This document shows, one piece after another, positions 26,940-33,991 of a stretch of DNA of 49,295 nt. The stretch comes from an uncultured Gimesia sp. (GTDB lineage Bacteria > Planctomycetota > Planctomycetia > Planctomycetales > Planctomycetaceae). The notes beneath the pieces were generated by a model. That model was not told where the DNA came from, did not search any database, and worked only from the letters and a program-made list of their open reading frames with translations. The stretch spans positions 1 through 49,295 of the forward strand of contig NZ_CALEMX010000549.1 of the NCBI RefSeq assembly GCF_937910335.1. Direction: 5' to 3'. A program made the position numbers and the translations under genes. Numbering within the stretch: the first letter of the stretch is position 1; the number at the start of each line of letters is the position of its first letter.

Positions 26940-27359
26940 TTAAGCTTCACGCGTTTCTTCATCGGTGCTCCGATCCTCTTCCGAAGATGATTCCTGCTCC
27001 GAAGTGTTCGTTTCTCGCTCGACTTGTAATTCATCCAAAATACGAAGTGCCTCCATTGAATCCTTCAAAGCAGAATCCTGAACAAATTGAATCACAGGTG
27101 TATAACGGGTCTGAATTCGATCTGCAATTTTAGATTGAATAAATCCTTTTGCAGAGTTCAATCCATGCATACAAAGTGCTTTTGACTTTTCATCTCCCAT
27201 GATCGAAATATAAATCTTAGCTGACTGCACGTCCGGAGCTACTTCAACATGTAAAACCGTCACATTCTGGATACGAGGATCGCGCAATTGCAGCAGAATT
27301 GTTGTACTCACTGACTCTAATATCGCTTGAGCAATTTTTTCTATTCGACGGGTTGTCAT
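26940..27359 (-). CDS. rbfA: Ribosome-binding factor A
   Basis: A 139-residue protein with the KH-like RbfA fold: 'RRIEKIAQAILESVSTTILLQLRDPRI' at the N-terminus, 'VTVLHVEVAPDVQSAKIYISIMG' in the middle and 'LNSAKGFIQSKIADRIQTRYTPVIQFVQDSA' further on. RbfA helps mature the 5' end of 16S rRNA and the 30S subunit, and is needed in the cold. The last 25 residues are a Glu/Ser-rich extension. GGGGA precedes the ATG. It follows infB by 40 bp in the conserved order nusA-infB-rbfA. Confidence 0.96.
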   Translation of the reverse strand: MTTRRIEKIAQAILESVSTTILLQLRDPRIQNVTVLHVEVAPDVQSAKIYISIMGDEKSKALCMHGLNSAKGFIQSKIADRIQTRYTPVIQFVQDSALKDSMEALRILDELQVERETNTSEQESSSEEDRSTDEETREA

Positions 27360-27399: not shown

Positions 27400-30207
27400 T
27401 TAATTAGAAGACCCCTCAAGAGTTCGTTTGACCTCATTGATCCGGAATGCTTCTAACAGGTCTCCCTCCTTAATATCATTAAACCCAGATAGTAGAATAC
27501 CACATTCCATGCCTTCGCGAACTTCCTTCACATCATCCTTTTCTCTTTTTAACGAGGCGAGACCATATTGATTAAGTATCTTCTGGTCTCGTATCAGATG
27601 TACTCGATCATTTCGATTGATCGTTCCATTCAATACACGACAACCAGCAATCTTTCCAAATCGACTAATCGAAAATGTCTGTAGAACCAAAGCACGTCCA
27701 GTTTGTTCCTGTACCAGTTCCGGACGCAACATCCCTTCCAGCGACAGTTTGATATCATCTAAGACTTCATAAATAATACTGTAACGCCGGATTTCGACAT
27801 CTTCCTGTGTTGCAAGAGTTCGAGCTCGATCTTCGGCAATCACATGGAATGCAACGATAATTGCATTTGATGCACTCGCCAGATAGACATCACTTTCGTT
27901 CACTCCCCCAACCCCTTCATGCAGAATTTTAACCCGCACTTCTGGATGCTCAAACTTCCCGATTTCACTTCGAATCGCTTCCAGAGAACCTGGCGTATCA
28001 GCTTTGATAATCAGAGGCAGATCCTGAATCGCCCCTTCGTGGACAGAACTCATTATGTCTTCCAGAGTTCGAGGACCGCCACTGTGTCTCGATAAAGTAT
28101 CGGCACGTCCTTCATCCCGACGCTCTTCAGCCAGTTCTCTCGCTTGATCAATGTCAGGAACCACAACAAAGTGATCACCGGCACCCGGTACTGTATCCAG
28201 GCCGGTTACCTTCACAGGCATTGAGGGAAAGGCCTCATCTAACTGCTGATCTTTGTCATCATACATGGCACGAATGTAACCATAAGATTTACCGCAGATC
28301 ACGGCGTCACCTATCCGCAACGTACCAGTTTGAACAATCAACCAGGCTACAGAACCGCGACCTTCATCGCGGAAACCTTCCAGGCAGACACCAACGGCAG
28401 AACGATTCGGGTTTGCTTTGAGTTCATGTAGTTCAGCAGTCAACAACAGCGTTTCCAGAAGACTGTCGAGACCTGTGCCCTGTAAAGCCGAGACTCGTAC
28501 CACTTCGGTTTCCCCACCCCATTCGGAGGGAAGCACATCTTGGCCAGCGAGATCCGTCAATACTTTTTGTTCGTTAATTTCGGGCAAATCAATTTTATTC
28601 ATTGCCACAACCATTGGCACACCAGACGCTTTAACATGGCTGATACTTTCAGCGGTCTGAGGCATCACGCCATCATCGGCTGCTACAACCAGCACGACCA
28701 TGTCTGTAACGTTCGCACCCCGTGATCGCATTTCACTAAAAGCGGCATGCCCGGGTGTATCCACAAAAGTCAACTTGTGCCCGTTATAATCTATTTGATA
28801 AGCGGCTATATGCTGGGTAATTCCCCCCGCTTCACCATCAACCACTTTCGTATTTCGAAGTGAATCGACAAGAGTCGTCTTTCCATGATCGACGTGACCC
28901 AATACGGTGATAATCGGTGGTCGTGTGATAAGATCTTCGGGAGCGTCTTCCTGATCAATAATCTCGGCAACAGTTTCCAAAGCACCCCTTTGCCGTTTAA
29001 AGGTCAGATCCACTCCTAATTCTAATGCCACTGCCAAAGCAGTTTCCTCTTCAAGAATCTGGTTGATGGTTACCATTTCACCAAATTCTTTAAACAGAAT
29101 TGACATTATTGCTTTTGCCGGGCGCCCCATTGCCTCCGAAAGACTGCGTACCGTCATTGGCACTTCGACTTCCGCTTCTGTTTTATGAACAATCGCTCCT
29201 GAATCTTGCTTCCGTTTTGATCGACGGGGGCGACGGCCTACCGCTTCCTGCTGCTCGGTCCCATCAGGAGCAAAGACACGACGACCTTCTCTACGCTGTT
29301 TCCGCGCTTCGACCAGGCTCAGACTTCCTCGACGTTCTTTTGAATCTTCGTCCTGAGGATCGCGATCTTTCTCACGCTTTTTCTGTTCCGTATGCTGAGC
29401 CAGATGAGCGGCCAGAGGACTCTTTTGCTCTAGAATATCTGCAGTCAAACGAACTTCAGGCTTCTGTGCTTTTTCCTCTTTTTTCTTTACTTTAGGAATA
29501 ACCGGTTGCTTATACGCAGGAGGAGCTGCCACTGAAGGCAATGCAGACTTGGTTTTCGATTTCGACTGCTGCTTGCCAGAACGTGTGGACCCTCGAGGTA
29601 ACATCTCACGGATTGAGGAAGTATTTGTGTTTCCAGCAGGCATAAAATCATCACGGCTGAGAGCTTGCTCGGAATCACCCGCTTCAACTTCTTTTGACTT
29701 GCGTTTCAATGCGCCAGAACGAGACTCCTTAACCACTGCACCTGAAGATCCTTCCTCTACAGAAGAATCGTCTAGGGAATCGCCTGGGGAATCGCCTGGG
29801 GAATCGCCTGGGGAATCGGCAGCCCCTGCTTCTCCCTCAACTTGTTCAACCGCTACTCCTGAATCGCTTTCTTCTCCCGTATCTGAAAGCTCATCTTCAT
29901 CTGATGCTCCGGAAGATTTTAGTGTTGTAGAACGAGTAGATTGTGATCGGGACGTCATAGCCTTGATGGTCCGCATCTTGGCCTGTTCACGTTGCGGTAC
30001 CATCGTAGCCTGATCAACGGCCTCGACTGAATCACCAGAAGGTTGATCCTTCTTATTCAGATAGGCAATCACAATGTCACGTTCGTCGGGCGTGATGCTG
30101 GCCAAAGCGGAGTTCTTCAACTTCACCCCCGCTTGGTTACATTCATCGATCAGCACTTTGCTGTCCATTCCCAACTCTTTTGCAAGAGCAAAAATACGTA
30201 TCTTCAA
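27400..30207 (-). CDS. infB: Translation initiation factor IF-2
   Basis: IF-2 binds fMet-tRNA and GTP and joins the ribosomal subunits. The start is taken as TTG at 30207, giving 935 residues, because the product then begins with the family-typical '[14 protein letters not shown]' and has GGAG 8 bases upstream; the TTG at 30228 adds seven residues. After the N-terminal IF2_N helix-turn (about 1-50) comes a long low-complexity, charged linker (about 60-345) with an SPGD repeat, then the second IF2_N domain (about 350-400). The GTPase domain begins with '[10 protein letters not shown]' (about 437-446), followed by 'DTPGHAAF' and 'NKID'. Domains II, III and IV are complete to the end. It lies between nusA (109 bp upstream) and rbfA. 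Confidence 0.97.
29765..29818. repeat. 12-base tandem repeat inside infB
   Basis: About four copies of a 12-base unit (GGGGAATCGCCT on the plus strand, the first slightly diverged) encode the SPGD repeats of the IF-2 linker. The length is a multiple of three, so changes in copy number keep the reading frame. Confidence 0.85.
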
Positions 30208-30316
30208 CAGCTCTTCTCCCGTGAACAATTCTGCAATCCGTTTTTAAATTCAGTGAAATTCAAACGAATCACCTGATGAGACAACTGCCTCATAAAACTT
30301 ACTCGTAATAAACGCT

Positions 30317-31819
30317 TTATTCCTGCTTTTCAGTAGACTCTTCTGTAGTATTCTCCGCATTCACCGGTACTTCTTCAGTAGCGACGACTTCATCTGTCTT
30401 TGTCTCGGGTTCAGCAGCGGCTTCCTCCGCGACGACACTCTCTTCAGCTTCAGTTTCGACGACTTCATCTGTCGTTGACTTGGATTCAGCAGAGGCTTCC
30501 TCCGCGACGACACTCTCATCAGCTTCCGAGCCGCTCACTTCAGCCTCAGATTCAGTCGCGGCCGGTTCTGAAGTTGCTTCAACTTCGGTAGCGACAGATT
30601 CCTTTTCGGCTGTGGCTTGCGGATTATTTTTCTTGGCGGCGCGCATTGCATCTTCTTCTGCTTCGACACGCTCACTTTCCCGATCTGCAACTTCCACAAT
30701 CTGTGTGCATTGCTCAGCGGTCAGACCACCTAGTTCTGCCAACTGGTCTGGCTCGATAACGGATAAATCGTAGTAACTGAAAAACCCCTGTGAGACCAGG
30801 CTTTCAGCCAATTCTTCGGAAACTCCGGGGATTGAAGAAAATGCTTCTACTGTTTTATCCAACTGTTCATCCAACTCGCTTTGAGTCATCACTTCAATAT
30901 CCCAACCGACCAGCTTGGAAGCCAGACGCACATTCTGCCCTTTTCGACCAATTGCCAGAGGAAGTTGATCCTCGCGTACGAGAACAATCACACGCCCTAA
31001 CATCGGGCACAAAATGACGTCTTCCACTTCCGCAGGTTGTAATGAGTTCGGCACTAGAACCTGTAAAGAGTCATTCCAGCGGACAATATCAATCCGCTCG
31101 CCGGCAAGCTCATCTACAATATTCTTAATCCTGGCTCCTCGCATTCCCACGCAGGCTCCCACGCAATCGATGCTACTGTCCATACAGGATACTGCTACTT
31201 TGGATCGATAGCCAGCTTCGCGAGCCAACGAACGAACATCAATAATTCGATCCGAGACTTCAGGAATTTCCAGTTCGAATAATCGCCGCACCATATCCGG
31301 ATGAGTTCGTGAGAGAATCACCTTTACCCGGCTACCCGCTTTACGTACATCCAGCACAATCGCACGCGCACGATCACCGACCCGAAACGATTCACCGGGT
31401 ATCTGTTCGCCTCGCGGTAGAATGCCTTCTATTTTTCCCAGGTTGATCAGCACTGCCCCACCTTCGACTCGCGAGACGCTTCCCGAAACCGATTGATGTT
31501 GCATTTCCAGATATTCATCAAAAACAGAATCTCGTTCCGCTTCACGAATTTTTTGGATCATGACCTGCTTGGCTGTTTGTGCCGCAACACGCCCCAGAAT
31601 TTCACCTAGAATATCCTGAGCCAACTTTTCCTCATCACAAAAAACGGTCGGTTCACCTGAATCACGGTCAATATGGACAGAAAGTTCATGGTCATCTCCG
31701 AAGTGCCTGCGCGCAGCCGATAAGATTGCCTGTTCAATCCCACCAAACACGATCTCTTTATCAATGCTTTTATCGCGTTGAATGGCATCAACAATCCTGA
31801 GAACTTCCTTACCGTCCAT
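30317..31819 (-). CDS. nusA: Transcription termination/antitermination factor NusA
   Basis: A 500-residue protein. NusA binds RNA polymerase and nascent RNA, and modulates pausing, intrinsic termination and antitermination. The N-terminal polymerase-binding domain spans about 1-125. The S1 domain follows at about 130-200 ('[20 protein letters not shown]'), then KH1 and KH2 with '[14 protein letters not shown]' and '[15 protein letters not shown]'. A helix-hairpin-helix-like segment lies near 325-380 ('[18 protein letters not shown]'). The last 110 or so residues are Glu/Ala/Val-rich low complexity and contain a 25-residue duplicated unit. AAGGAA lies 8 bases before the ATG. It is the first gene of the nusA-infB-rbfA series; rimP, the usual upstream gene, is absent. 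Confidence 0.97.
30383..30532. repeat. 75-base tandem duplication in the nusA 3' end
   Basis: Two copies of a 75-base unit (30383-30457 and 30458-30532) are recognisable by the shared GACGACTTCATCTGTC start and CCTCCGCGACGACACTCTC core on the plus strand. Each encodes 25 residues of the acidic NusA tail, with ESVVAEE and TDEVV in both. Confidence 0.85.
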
Positions 31820-31951
31820 AATTGTGTTTCCTTCATTCGACAGTTGCTAAGCTCAACTGACTCGAAAACTACTTCAAACAAGACCTGAACCAGTCAAATC
31901 TATTTCTCCTGACACTGTTGAATACCCAAATTCAGCAGTACCACCATTAAC

Positions 31952-31978
31952 AAAAAAAAGCGGGAACATGCCCACTTT
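31952..31978 (-). terminator. Intrinsic terminator upstream of nusA, possible attenuator
   Basis: On the minus strand AAAGTGGG pairs with CCCGCTTT (one G-U pair) around a six-base loop, followed directly by a run of eight T. It lies 132 bases before the nusA ATG and points towards nusA. It either ends a short upstream RNA or works as an attenuator within the nusA leader. Confidence 0.65.
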
Positions 31979-32088
31979 ATGACTACCATCACTACCGTAT
32001 AACGGTAGCCTGGCAGAGCCGTAATTGTCATTAAAGAAATAACAAATCACGACAATCGGATTGGTGAGCTAAAGCTCGAGTTCCAACC
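31979..32088 (-). promoter_or_regulatory. Structured minus-strand element preceding the nusA-proximal terminator
   Basis: Two further hairpins precede the terminator in minus-strand order. The first, at 32088-32059, has an outer stem CCAACC/GATTGG (with one G-U pair) around an inner GAGC-TTTA-GCTC hairpin. The second, at 32008-31992, is a perfect 7-base stem CTACCGT/ACGGTAG with a three-base loop. Together with the terminator they look like a small structured RNA or leader of about 140 bases. No known riboswitch class was recognised. Confidence 0.4.
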
Positions 32089-32572
32089 AGCCTACATATC
32101 AGAGGACTCCATTCGAGTTTACGAATGCCGATTTATCACAAAGAAACAAACAGCCACATTGGCTTGTTCCCCCTTGCAAACACACTGAACACCAGTATGC
32201 AAAACAATTGCGCATAAGGCATCCCACAGAGGATACCCTATTATCCACTGAAATTAATCTCCGCGCGCTCAGATGTCAAGCACCGCAGGCAACTATTTCA
32301 GAACGACTTAGTACCTGTATTCGAGAATCAGACCACAGAGCCGAATACTGTTTCTATTTACAGGTAATAGCGACCCGTCAAACCTATTTAGAATCAAAAA
32401 TCGGATCTGCCACGTTTCGGCCAATTTCTTCAGATGTGGAAAGATTGATCTCCATCAAAATCGAAATCTACTATAGTATTGGAATGAATTCTCGGATGAA
32501 GCGATTACTTTTCGATTTTGCCGGGTTAGTTATCAGGAAAACATCTCCACACTTCTGAAGGACGGTCCCATA

Positions 32573-33991
32573 ATGTCACGTTTAATCCCGCTTTTGATTT
32601 TCTGCATCGGATTCCCCATCACCGCGGCTGCACAGCCAACTGCACCAAACGACCCTTTTGCCCAACAAAAAATAGCCGCTGATCAAGCTCAGCAAAAAGG
32701 CGATTATGCGAAGTCTATTGAACTGACATCGCAAATTTTGCAACAAAAGCCGGATGACCATATCGCCTACTATCTGAGAGCCAGTGCGCGCGTGGAATCA
32801 GGCAGAGCACAGGGAAATGCAAAAACCATCAGAGACGGGATCGGCGATGCACGTGAAGCTATCCGGTTCAGTCAAAATCAAAATGTGAATTACTATCTGC
32901 CATATCTCTACGGAATGATAAATCTGGCTGTCATGGAAAACAAAAAGAGTCATGGAGAGACAGCCTTAGGTGTTGCCAATCAAATTCTGGTCCGCCCGAA
33001 TCTGACTGCTGAAGAACGAGCCAATTTCCACTATCAGCGAGGGATGATCTTTCTACCTTTGAATAAACCACAGGAAGCCGCGAAAGACTTCACCGAAACA
33101 ATTAAACTTTCCCCTAACCATTTTGCAGCTTTACTGGCACTGCCAGATGCTTATGCATTAGCTGGAAATAATGAAATGGCGCTCGCCAGTTTTAATCAGG
33201 TTGCACAAAAACAACCTGATTCTCCAGTTGTTTACAACAACCGCGCCATGTATTTCCAACAACAGGGAAAACTTCAGGATGCCATCAATGACTTCTCCCG
33301 CGCGATTCAGATCGATCCTAAATACCACCATGCCATTACAAATCGAGGCTTTGCATACCTGGAAGGCGGTAAACCCGAGACAGCTGAAGCAGATTTGACA
33401 CAATCGCTCTCTATTGCCCCAAATCAACCATTCGTCCTGGGAATGAGAGGAGAGGCGCGGCTTCTGCAAGGAAAGATTACTCAGGCCATCGAAGATCAGA
33501 AACAGGCGGTGCAACTAGATCCGCAAAATGCGGCCCTGCGTTCTGACTTAGGATTTTCCTACTTTTTCAGTCAGAATTATCCTGCTGCCATTACCGAGTT
33601 CAACCTGGCGGCAAAGCTAGCTCCGGAGCAGATGAAAGTATTAAATCCCTGGATTTACCTGGCAATGATTCGCAGTAACCAAAAACCTGCAGCAGATGCA
33701 AAATTTCAATCGGTTCTTGCACAAAAACCAGACTCACGCGATTCCGTTGACAATCTCCTGGCTTATTTAATGGGTGCGGTTACTCAAGCTGATCTGATTA
33801 AATCCATCGACCTCAAAGACCAGGAACGCGCAAAAGCCCAAACTTGCGAAGCATACTTTTTCATCGGGCAAAAAGCCCTCCTTGCCAATGACAATGCAAC
33901 CGCCACTCAAAATTTTCAGCAAGCCCTCAATACCAACATGAAGAATCTGTCGGCATATCGTGGTGCTCAATACGCACTCAAAAAGTTTTAA
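32573..33991 (+). CDS. Exported TPR-repeat protein
   Basis: A 472-residue protein with a signal peptide (hydrophobic residues 4-18, ending 'AAAQ') and AAGGA about 10 bases before the ATG. It contains about eight TPR units between residues 30 and 360. Clear ones are 'AAKDFTETIKLSPNHFAAL', 'ALASFNQVAQKQPDSPVVY', 'AINDFSRAIQIDPKYHHAI', 'AEADLTQSLSIAPNQPFVL' and 'AIEDQKQAVQLDPQNAALR'. The C-terminal 100 residues resemble further TPR units with a non-canonical insert. It is transcribed away from nusA and ends 98 bases before a strong terminator. A specific role cannot be read from the sequence. Confidence 0.88.
   Translation: MSRLIPLLIFCIGFPITAAAQPTAPNDPFAQQKIAADQAQQKGDYAKSIELTSQILQQKPDDHIAYYLRASARVESGRAQGNAKTIRDGIGDAREAIRFSQNQNVNYYLPYLYGMINLAVMENKKSHGETALGVANQILVRPNLTAEERANFHYQRGMIFLPLNKPQEAAKDFTETIKLSPNHFAALLALPDAYALAGNNEMALASFNQVAQKQPDSPVVYNNRAMYFQQQGKLQDAINDFSRAIQIDPKYHHAITNRGFAYLEGGKPETAEADLTQSLSIAPNQPFVLGMRGEARLLQGKITQAIEDQKQAVQLDPQNAALRSDLGFSYFFSQNYPAAITEFNLAAKLAPEQMKVLNPWIYLAMIRSNQKPAADAKFQSVLAQKPDSRDSVDNLLAYLMGAVTQADLIKSIDLKDQERAKAQTCEAYFFIGQKALLANDNATATQNFQQALNTNMKNLSAYRGAQYALKKF

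Follow-up and report, generated by a model that had tools for sequence, protein, structure and literature searches.

Naville and Gautheret (2010, PMC2965389) described the rimP-leader as the commonest attenuator. Its terminator follows the pattern GGGc(...)gCCC, they saw no antiterminator, and they considered NusA the likely regulator. In Bacillus subtilis, NusA autoregulates through NusA-stimulated intrinsic termination in the 5' leader (Mondal et al. 2016, cited in PMC12288461). A small ORF is involved in B. subtilis vmlR: initiation on its three-codon uORF determines whether an antiterminator or a terminator stimulated by NusA and NusG takes effect (PMC9226507). Ribosome profiling has revealed start-stop sites, in which a stop codon directly follows the start codon, in E. 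coli and Campylobacter jejuni, and a regulatory role has been suggested for them (PMC11955535).

The DNA analysed here (the window) is a stretch of 49,295 nucleotides from an uncultured Gimesia species, belonging to an assembly of 6.5 Mb that is 96% complete. On its minus strand nusA, infB and rbfA follow in succession, with infB in the nusA operon, and a TPR gene diverges at 32573. The first-pass annotation had noted that rimP is missing ahead of nusA, and this extends to the entire assembly, in which the Pfam domain RimP_N (PF02576) has no match; the same search was positive in 10 of 14 control genomes. The annotation had also described three hairpins followed by eight T residues, 132 bases before the nusA start. 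This description is accurate, the 132 nt being 31951-31820, and the hairpins and terminator stand; what it missed is a Shine-Dalgarno (SD) sequence, ATG and stop codon that recur throughout the family (32110-32092 in the window). The features of the region are as follows.

32280-32314, minus strand: nearly invariant block just 5' of the -35 box (alignment of 17 genus genomes)
32251-32279, minus strand: promoter TTGACA (32279-32274), 17 nt, TAATTT (32256-32251), near-invariant in 17 of 17 genus genomes
31952-32246, minus strand: structured leader RNA of about 290 nt (folding energy, covariation)
32107-32110, minus strand: SD sequence GGAG belonging to the start-stop ORF (across 49 leaders purines peak at -12 to -9)
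32092-32097, minus strand: start-stop ORF, ATG 32097-32095 and TAG 32094-32092, invariant in 17 of 17 genus genomes
32058-32088, minus strand: hairpin 1 (GGUUGG...CCAAUC), shortly 3' of the stop codon of the start-stop; predicted by folding, never varies in the genus
32018-32053, minus strand: hairpin 2 (GUCGUG...UACGGC); predicted by folding, one pair changed on both sides in 3 of 17 genomes
31984-32015, minus strand: hairpin 3 (CUACCG...CGGUAG plus an outer stem); predicted by folding, one pair changed on both sides in 2 of 17 genomes
31952-31978, minus strand: intrinsic terminator AAAGTGGGCATGTTCCCGCTTTTTTTT with rimP-leader-like G-rich and C-rich arms, found before nusA across the family
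31836-31866, minus strand: hairpin UUCGAGUCAGUUGA...CAACUGUCGAA just 5' of the nusA SD sequence (alignment, read by eye)
30317-31819, minus strand: nusA, ATG at 31819 (Pfam NusA_N, S1, KH_5)
27400-30228, minus strand: infB, translation initiation factor IF2 (Pfam IF2_N, IF-2)
26940-27359, minus strand: rbfA (Pfam RBFA)

Transcription would be expected to start near 32244. The promoter is called because it is conserved; a simple promoter scan, which required 9 of 12 matches in total with A as the second and T as the sixth base of the -10 box, did not list the TTGACA-17-TAATTT promoter and reported its sole site on the other strand. The roughly 35 bp at 32280-32314 are near-invariant in the 17 genomes, which exceeds the needs of a plain promoter, and are possibly an upstream promoter element or a regulator site.

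The series of hairpins is structured well beyond chance. The 294-nt leader folds at -110.7 kcal/mol, compared with -78.2 kcal/mol for shuffled sequences (z -6.9), and the 137-nt element with the three hairpins and the terminator folds at -52.9 kcal/mol, compared with -30.5 +/- 3.5 kcal/mol (z -6.3); none of 200 shuffles reached the native value in either case. The terminator consists of the stem AAAGUGGG/CCCGCUUU at 31978-31957 and a T8 run at 31959-31952 (minus strand), and its pattern occurs only once in the 6.5-Mb assembly. Closer to nusA, the hairpin at 31836-31866, which is conserved in the genus, possibly serves in translational control of this gene, and a smaller GACC/GGTC hairpin is found upstream of it.

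A search of the window against Rfam gave no family above its gathering score. The rimP leader model (RF01770) has no covariance match at the locus, and its best match elsewhere in the genome scores 26.3 bits (E 0.12, cut-off 47). Among the candidate identities of the leader, the sR4 hit in the region was put down to chance, MicX and L20_leader scored below cut-off and only partly resemble the terminator, and 6S RNA (RF00013) was rejected since the single match in the genome is below cut-off and lies on another contig. That match (L018, G000:C521:10094-10275; 36.2 bits, Rfam cut-off 46.4) is itself a probable divergent 6S RNA of the source genome.

The locus nevertheless has several of the attributes described for the rimP-leader. 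It is a 5' UTR before nusA-infB-rbfA, as the rimP-leader is an attenuator of the (rimP-)nusA-infB operon, and the short terminator has a G-rich 5' arm, a C-rich 3' arm and a U-stretch (AAAGTGGG...CCCGC plus T8 in the window), with no antiterminator visible. The motif is GUGGGAc...gCCCRC in the planctomycetes, compared with GGGc...gCCC in the published leader (PMC2965389). The differences are that rimP is absent, so that the terminator lies before nusA, and that a start-stop uORF precedes the terminator. With the NusA leader of B. subtilis the locus shares a leader terminator that controls transcription into the gene, dependence on NusA being putative here; the accessible text of PMC12288461 mentions no uORF for B. 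subtilis, whereas the present leader carries the start-stop. On these two analogies, the self-control by NusA that the first-pass annotation had raised is plausible, being known in B. subtilis (PMC12288461) and proposed for the rimP-leader (PMC2965389).

The closest worked analogue is the vmlR leader of B. subtilis, which likewise has a short ORF with an SD sequence upstream of an intrinsic terminator in a leader. The two share a single-stranded SD sequence, a minimal uORF (Met-Ile-Asn in vmlR), hairpins and a terminator, and in vmlR it is arrest at initiation that settles readthrough. However, vmlR has a proposed anti-antiterminator and antiterminator and a role in resistance, whereas the ORF studied here mostly lacks a second codon, and its leader shows no antiterminator and precedes genes for NusA and IF2 (PMC9226507). 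The two-codon minigenes of axe-txe and EHEC ler are also minimal ORFs that act in cis in bacterial leaders, but what they affect is how a nearby downstream gene is translated or how stable its mRNA is, and they do not stand before a terminator (PMC8708949). In the plant gene NIP5;1 an AUG is followed by a stop codon (AUGUAA) in the 5' UTR and ribosomes stall there, but this system is eukaryotic and leads to boron-dependent mRNA decay (PMC11915504).

The conservation of the hairpins among close relatives, on which the first-pass annotation had staked its proposal, holds within the genus and ends there at the sequence level. A DNA search found the leader element in 17 of 17 genus genomes, the source genome included (as a single copy), and in none of 42 other relatives; the leader of genome G004 is 98% identical to that of the window. 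A genus profile searched with nhmmer beyond the genus gave weak matches, mainly to pieces of the terminator. The conserved block extends from about 32314 to about 31945, with mean column conservation of 0.94-0.99 at 32300-32260, 32140-32060 and 31979-31960. Conservation drops on both sides, to 0.48-0.61 at 32400-32320 and 0.58-0.61 at 31940-31900; the stretch 31880-31820 between terminator and nusA is conserved in the genus as well, and the 5' part of nusA reaches 0.81-1.0. In the genus alignment 99.0% of the pair cells hold standard pairs, compared with 37-52% in slid controls, and eight pairs changed on both sides. The covariation that the annotation had proposed to look for is thus present, while hairpin 1 and the terminator are invariant in the genus and therefore conserved yet uninformative in this respect.

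The leaders of other genera were compared in a set of 61 genomes of the family. One genome (G022) gave no match, two (G087 and G097) were truncated at contig ends, and a second member of the window genus (L020) was omitted, leaving 57 leaders from 52 genera, or 56 after exclusion of L073, which has no terminator. Five terminators were placed by hand, and longer stretches were taken for L053 and L071. A set of 49 leaders was defined in which the ATG was assigned by the start-stop rule (stop within 0-3 codons), with L059 and L022 omitted and L038 added by hand; for the antiterminator and footprint tests 45 remained, four being lost because no 5' arm was recognised. Outside the genus no sequence conservation of the three hairpins is seen, and the layout that recurs comprises a promoter, a start-stop, a patch of structure and a terminator. 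A similar promoter is present upstream in 47 of the 49 leaders, and the terminator takes the form AAAGTGGGAC...GTCCCRCTTTTTTT, with G/G/G and C/C/C columns dominating.

Of the 56 family leaders, 50 have, at 60-215 nt ahead of the T-run, an SD-linked ATG that meets a stop after 0-3 codons (shuffles: mean 1.91, maximum 6). The stop follows immediately in 35 (mean 0.53, maximum 3) and after at most one codon in 42 (mean 1.17, maximum 5), while control segments 700-545 nt upstream of the T-run contained a start-stop in 0 of 55 cases. All three stop codons are used in the immediate form (TAG 15, TAA 12, TGA 8). A frame test covered all SD-linked ATGs lying 95-225 nt ahead of the T-run, 58 in total from 54 of the 56 leaders. 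It found an in-frame stop within four codons in 52, compared with 9 and 9 in the other frames; SD-linked triplets other than ATG (GTG, TTG, CTG, ACG, ATC, ATT) were followed by an immediate stop once in 80 cases. Start-stops were also seen in 22 of 25 named records, a set that partly overlaps the family genomes and includes Thalassoglobus neptunius KOR42. We regard translation of the start-stop as likely, with rather high confidence.

Exceptions are L053, with a nine-codon ORF and an SD sequence, L074, with a five-codon ORF, L071, with a longer or SD-less ORF, L075 and L076, with ATGTAA and no clear SD sequence, and L073, in which no leader was recognisable. An upstream in-frame start with its own SD sequence occurs in 8 of the 49 start-stops, which may there be the end of a longer ORF closing in Met-stop; in the window genus an in-frame ATG with no SD sequence was seen by eye five codons upstream. 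In L043, L050, L054 and L064 longer mini-ORFs end in ATG-stop (Met-x-x-Met-stop or Met-x-Met-stop), and the mini-ORF of L039 is ATG-ATA-stop, ATG-ATA being the codons of the lambda bar minigenes.

Within the 49 leaders, position +3 is T in 41, and the distance from ATG to T-run is mostly 105-190 nt, the distance from promoter to ATG being more variable. The SD sequence and ATG lie in an unstructured region (mean z +0.14 over -28..+15), and a structured patch is found further on, at +36..+79, before the terminator (mean z -1.57). A hairpin that always starts right after the stop is not supported, as the mean z there is only about -0.3; in part of one family group a GCAUUGG/CCGGUGC stem was seen by eye at that place.

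The gap between terminator and nusA is at most 40 nt in 17 of the 56 leaders and at most 26 nt in 10. A gap of up to 40 nt can hardly, if at all, accommodate a further promoter after the terminator, so that in these 17 leaders, as judged from spacing, nusA must be reached by readthrough. The recurrence of the promoter-leader-terminator layout in the family, together with these short gaps, supports the earlier proposal that the element is an attenuator in the nusA leader, which we consider very probable.

Outside the family the immediate start-stop was found in 2 of 44 leaders of other families of the class, which is about chance (shuffles: mean 0.7, maximum 4); these leaders come from 50 matching genomes, of which five were omitted and one was lost in alignment. 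One of the two (L107, from genome G127 of family f10) has the full layout of promoter, start-stop and T-run before nusA and may mark the limit of the feature's reach, and the second looks like chance. Among 26 loci of the phylum, drawn from 54 matching genomes outside the family, a GTGGG...CCC(A/G)C stem lies within 450 nt before nusA in 11 and the immediate start-stop in none; an SD-linked ATG with a stop within three codons was seen in 7 (raw count). This distribution gives the impression of an old terminator to which this family, and perhaps a neighbour, added the start-stop. Leaders of other kinds occur in the class as well. Five leaders of family f3 (L119, L123, L124, L125, L128) have another conserved, apparently structured block CACCAACGATGCACCGGCTTTTGGCCGC...GTCGGGGTGTCGGGC before nusA, with no clear terminator. 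Seven of family f2 (L091, L093, L094, L096-L099) represent a third kind, with the promoter CTTGACAGnnCTGTCAAC and a conserved block around AGGAGGCGCTGCCC.CTCGATGGTATCGCGGC, in which no T-run terminator was seen.

The reading that we prefer, with a probability of about 0.55, is a rimP-leader-type attenuator of nusA-infB-rbfA to which a start-stop uORF has been joined that reports translation initiation or ribosome turnover. Several results bear on it unfavourably. No conserved antiterminator was found in folds of truncated transcripts of the 45 leaders, as the partner of the 5' arm of the terminator scatters over the leader, and equilibrium folding of the same leaders made no uniform terminator/antiterminator switch visible. 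An in-silico ribosome footprint on the start-stop left the predicted terminator within 0.2 of its value in 40 of the 45; of the five larger changes four were upwards, towards termination, and one downwards, mostly against the proposed direction of control. The stretch from start-stop to terminator has no structure that could be aligned from one genus to another, and three group alignments gave no shared fold beyond the terminator. A literature search found no RNA-end, ribosome-profiling or reporter data for these organisms, and its part on start-stop ORFs with attenuators, rimP/nusA leaders and planctomycete transcript maps, which covered few subscription papers, found no description of the arrangement.

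That no antiterminator or switch is visible agrees with feedback by NusA only, in which a NusA-stimulated terminator of the rimP-leader type does the regulating and the start-stop, with no sensing of translation, protects the leader by parking a ribosome against RNases or Rho, or paces RNA polymerase. The terminator signature and its phylum-wide occurrence before nusA also fit, and two-codon minigenes elsewhere act in cis, possibly through mRNA stabilisation (PMC8708949). Parking, however, needs no stop right after the ATG, whereas the in-frame stop is strongly constrained, and the distance from start-stop to terminator is narrower in range than that to the promoter; we therefore hold this explanation to be unlikely, though not negligible. 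A sensor of antibiotics or ribosome stress in the style of vmlR, which would switch on nusA-infB when a drug traps initiating ribosomes on the AUG, has in its favour the resemblance to the vmlR layout of SD sequence, minimal uORF, structured element and NusA/NusG-stimulated terminator. It appears improbable, as the controlled genes encode NusA, IF2 and RbfA and no resistance factor, and a response to drugs would be a by-product of initiation sensing.

The remaining two explanations concern the nature of the transcript and of the ATG itself. The first-pass annotation had offered the 3' part of a small RNA as an alternative. In this view nusA would have a promoter of its own, and the strong promoter and structure of the element, the 132 nt between terminator and nusA in the window genus and the conservation of 31880-31820 would fit an independent RNA ending at the terminator. 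This idea fares badly against the gaps of at most 40 nt (17/56) and at most 26 nt (10/56) and the position of the element directly upstream of nusA in the leaders read, besides its single copy in the source genome, and is in our view quite improbable; the leader, once terminated, may nonetheless be present as a short RNA. That ATGTAG, ATGTAA and ATGTGA form a binding motif for a protein or RNA, and no translation signal, is in keeping with the T at +3 in 41 of 49 leaders and the genus-wide invariant block around the site. As the three stops interchange, one to three extra codons keep the frame and the SD sequence stands at the right distance, we give this very little credence.

Under the preferred reading, that of an attenuator joined to a reporting start-stop, RNA polymerase would start about 290 nt before the terminator, make the start-stop and meet the terminator some 135 nt later. 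Most transcripts would probably end there, and NusA and IF2 would be made from readthrough only. Because most copies of the ORF have no elongation codon and all three stops are used, neither an amino acid nor a single release factor could be sensed; the start-stop could instead register the assembly of initiation complexes on the AUG, their dwell there and their departure. A complex that lingers because initiation or turnover is slow, as under a shortage of IF2, might alter leader folding or the behaviour of RNA polymerase, so that the terminator would fail and more NusA and IF2 would be made. With fast ribosome turnover the NusA-stimulated terminator would win. We infer both the action of the start-stop on the terminator and the direction of control. 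Initiation sensing with feedback on IF2 is a reasoned guess, rated somewhat below an even chance and made because there are no elongation codons, all three stops are used and infB lies in the operon.

The known leader ORFs sense, to our knowledge, a codon, a nascent peptide or a drug, and we know of no natural reporter so far for initiation or ribosome turnover. That most of the roughly 50 genera sampled keep a mostly codon-less ORF before the operon of IF2 and NusA suggests that one or the other is sensed directly. Tentatively, and with more doubt than confidence, this would define a class of attenuator that gauges initiation itself, in which a peptide-less AUG-stop informs RNA polymerase at a NusA-type terminator of the pace of ribosome loading and clearance, and in this way adjusts IF2 and NusA jointly throughout the family. 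The widespread rimP-leader would thereby gain a second input, one accessible to simple mutations, and in these planctomycetes the leader probably lets ribosome activity set the amount of NusA and IF2 that is made.
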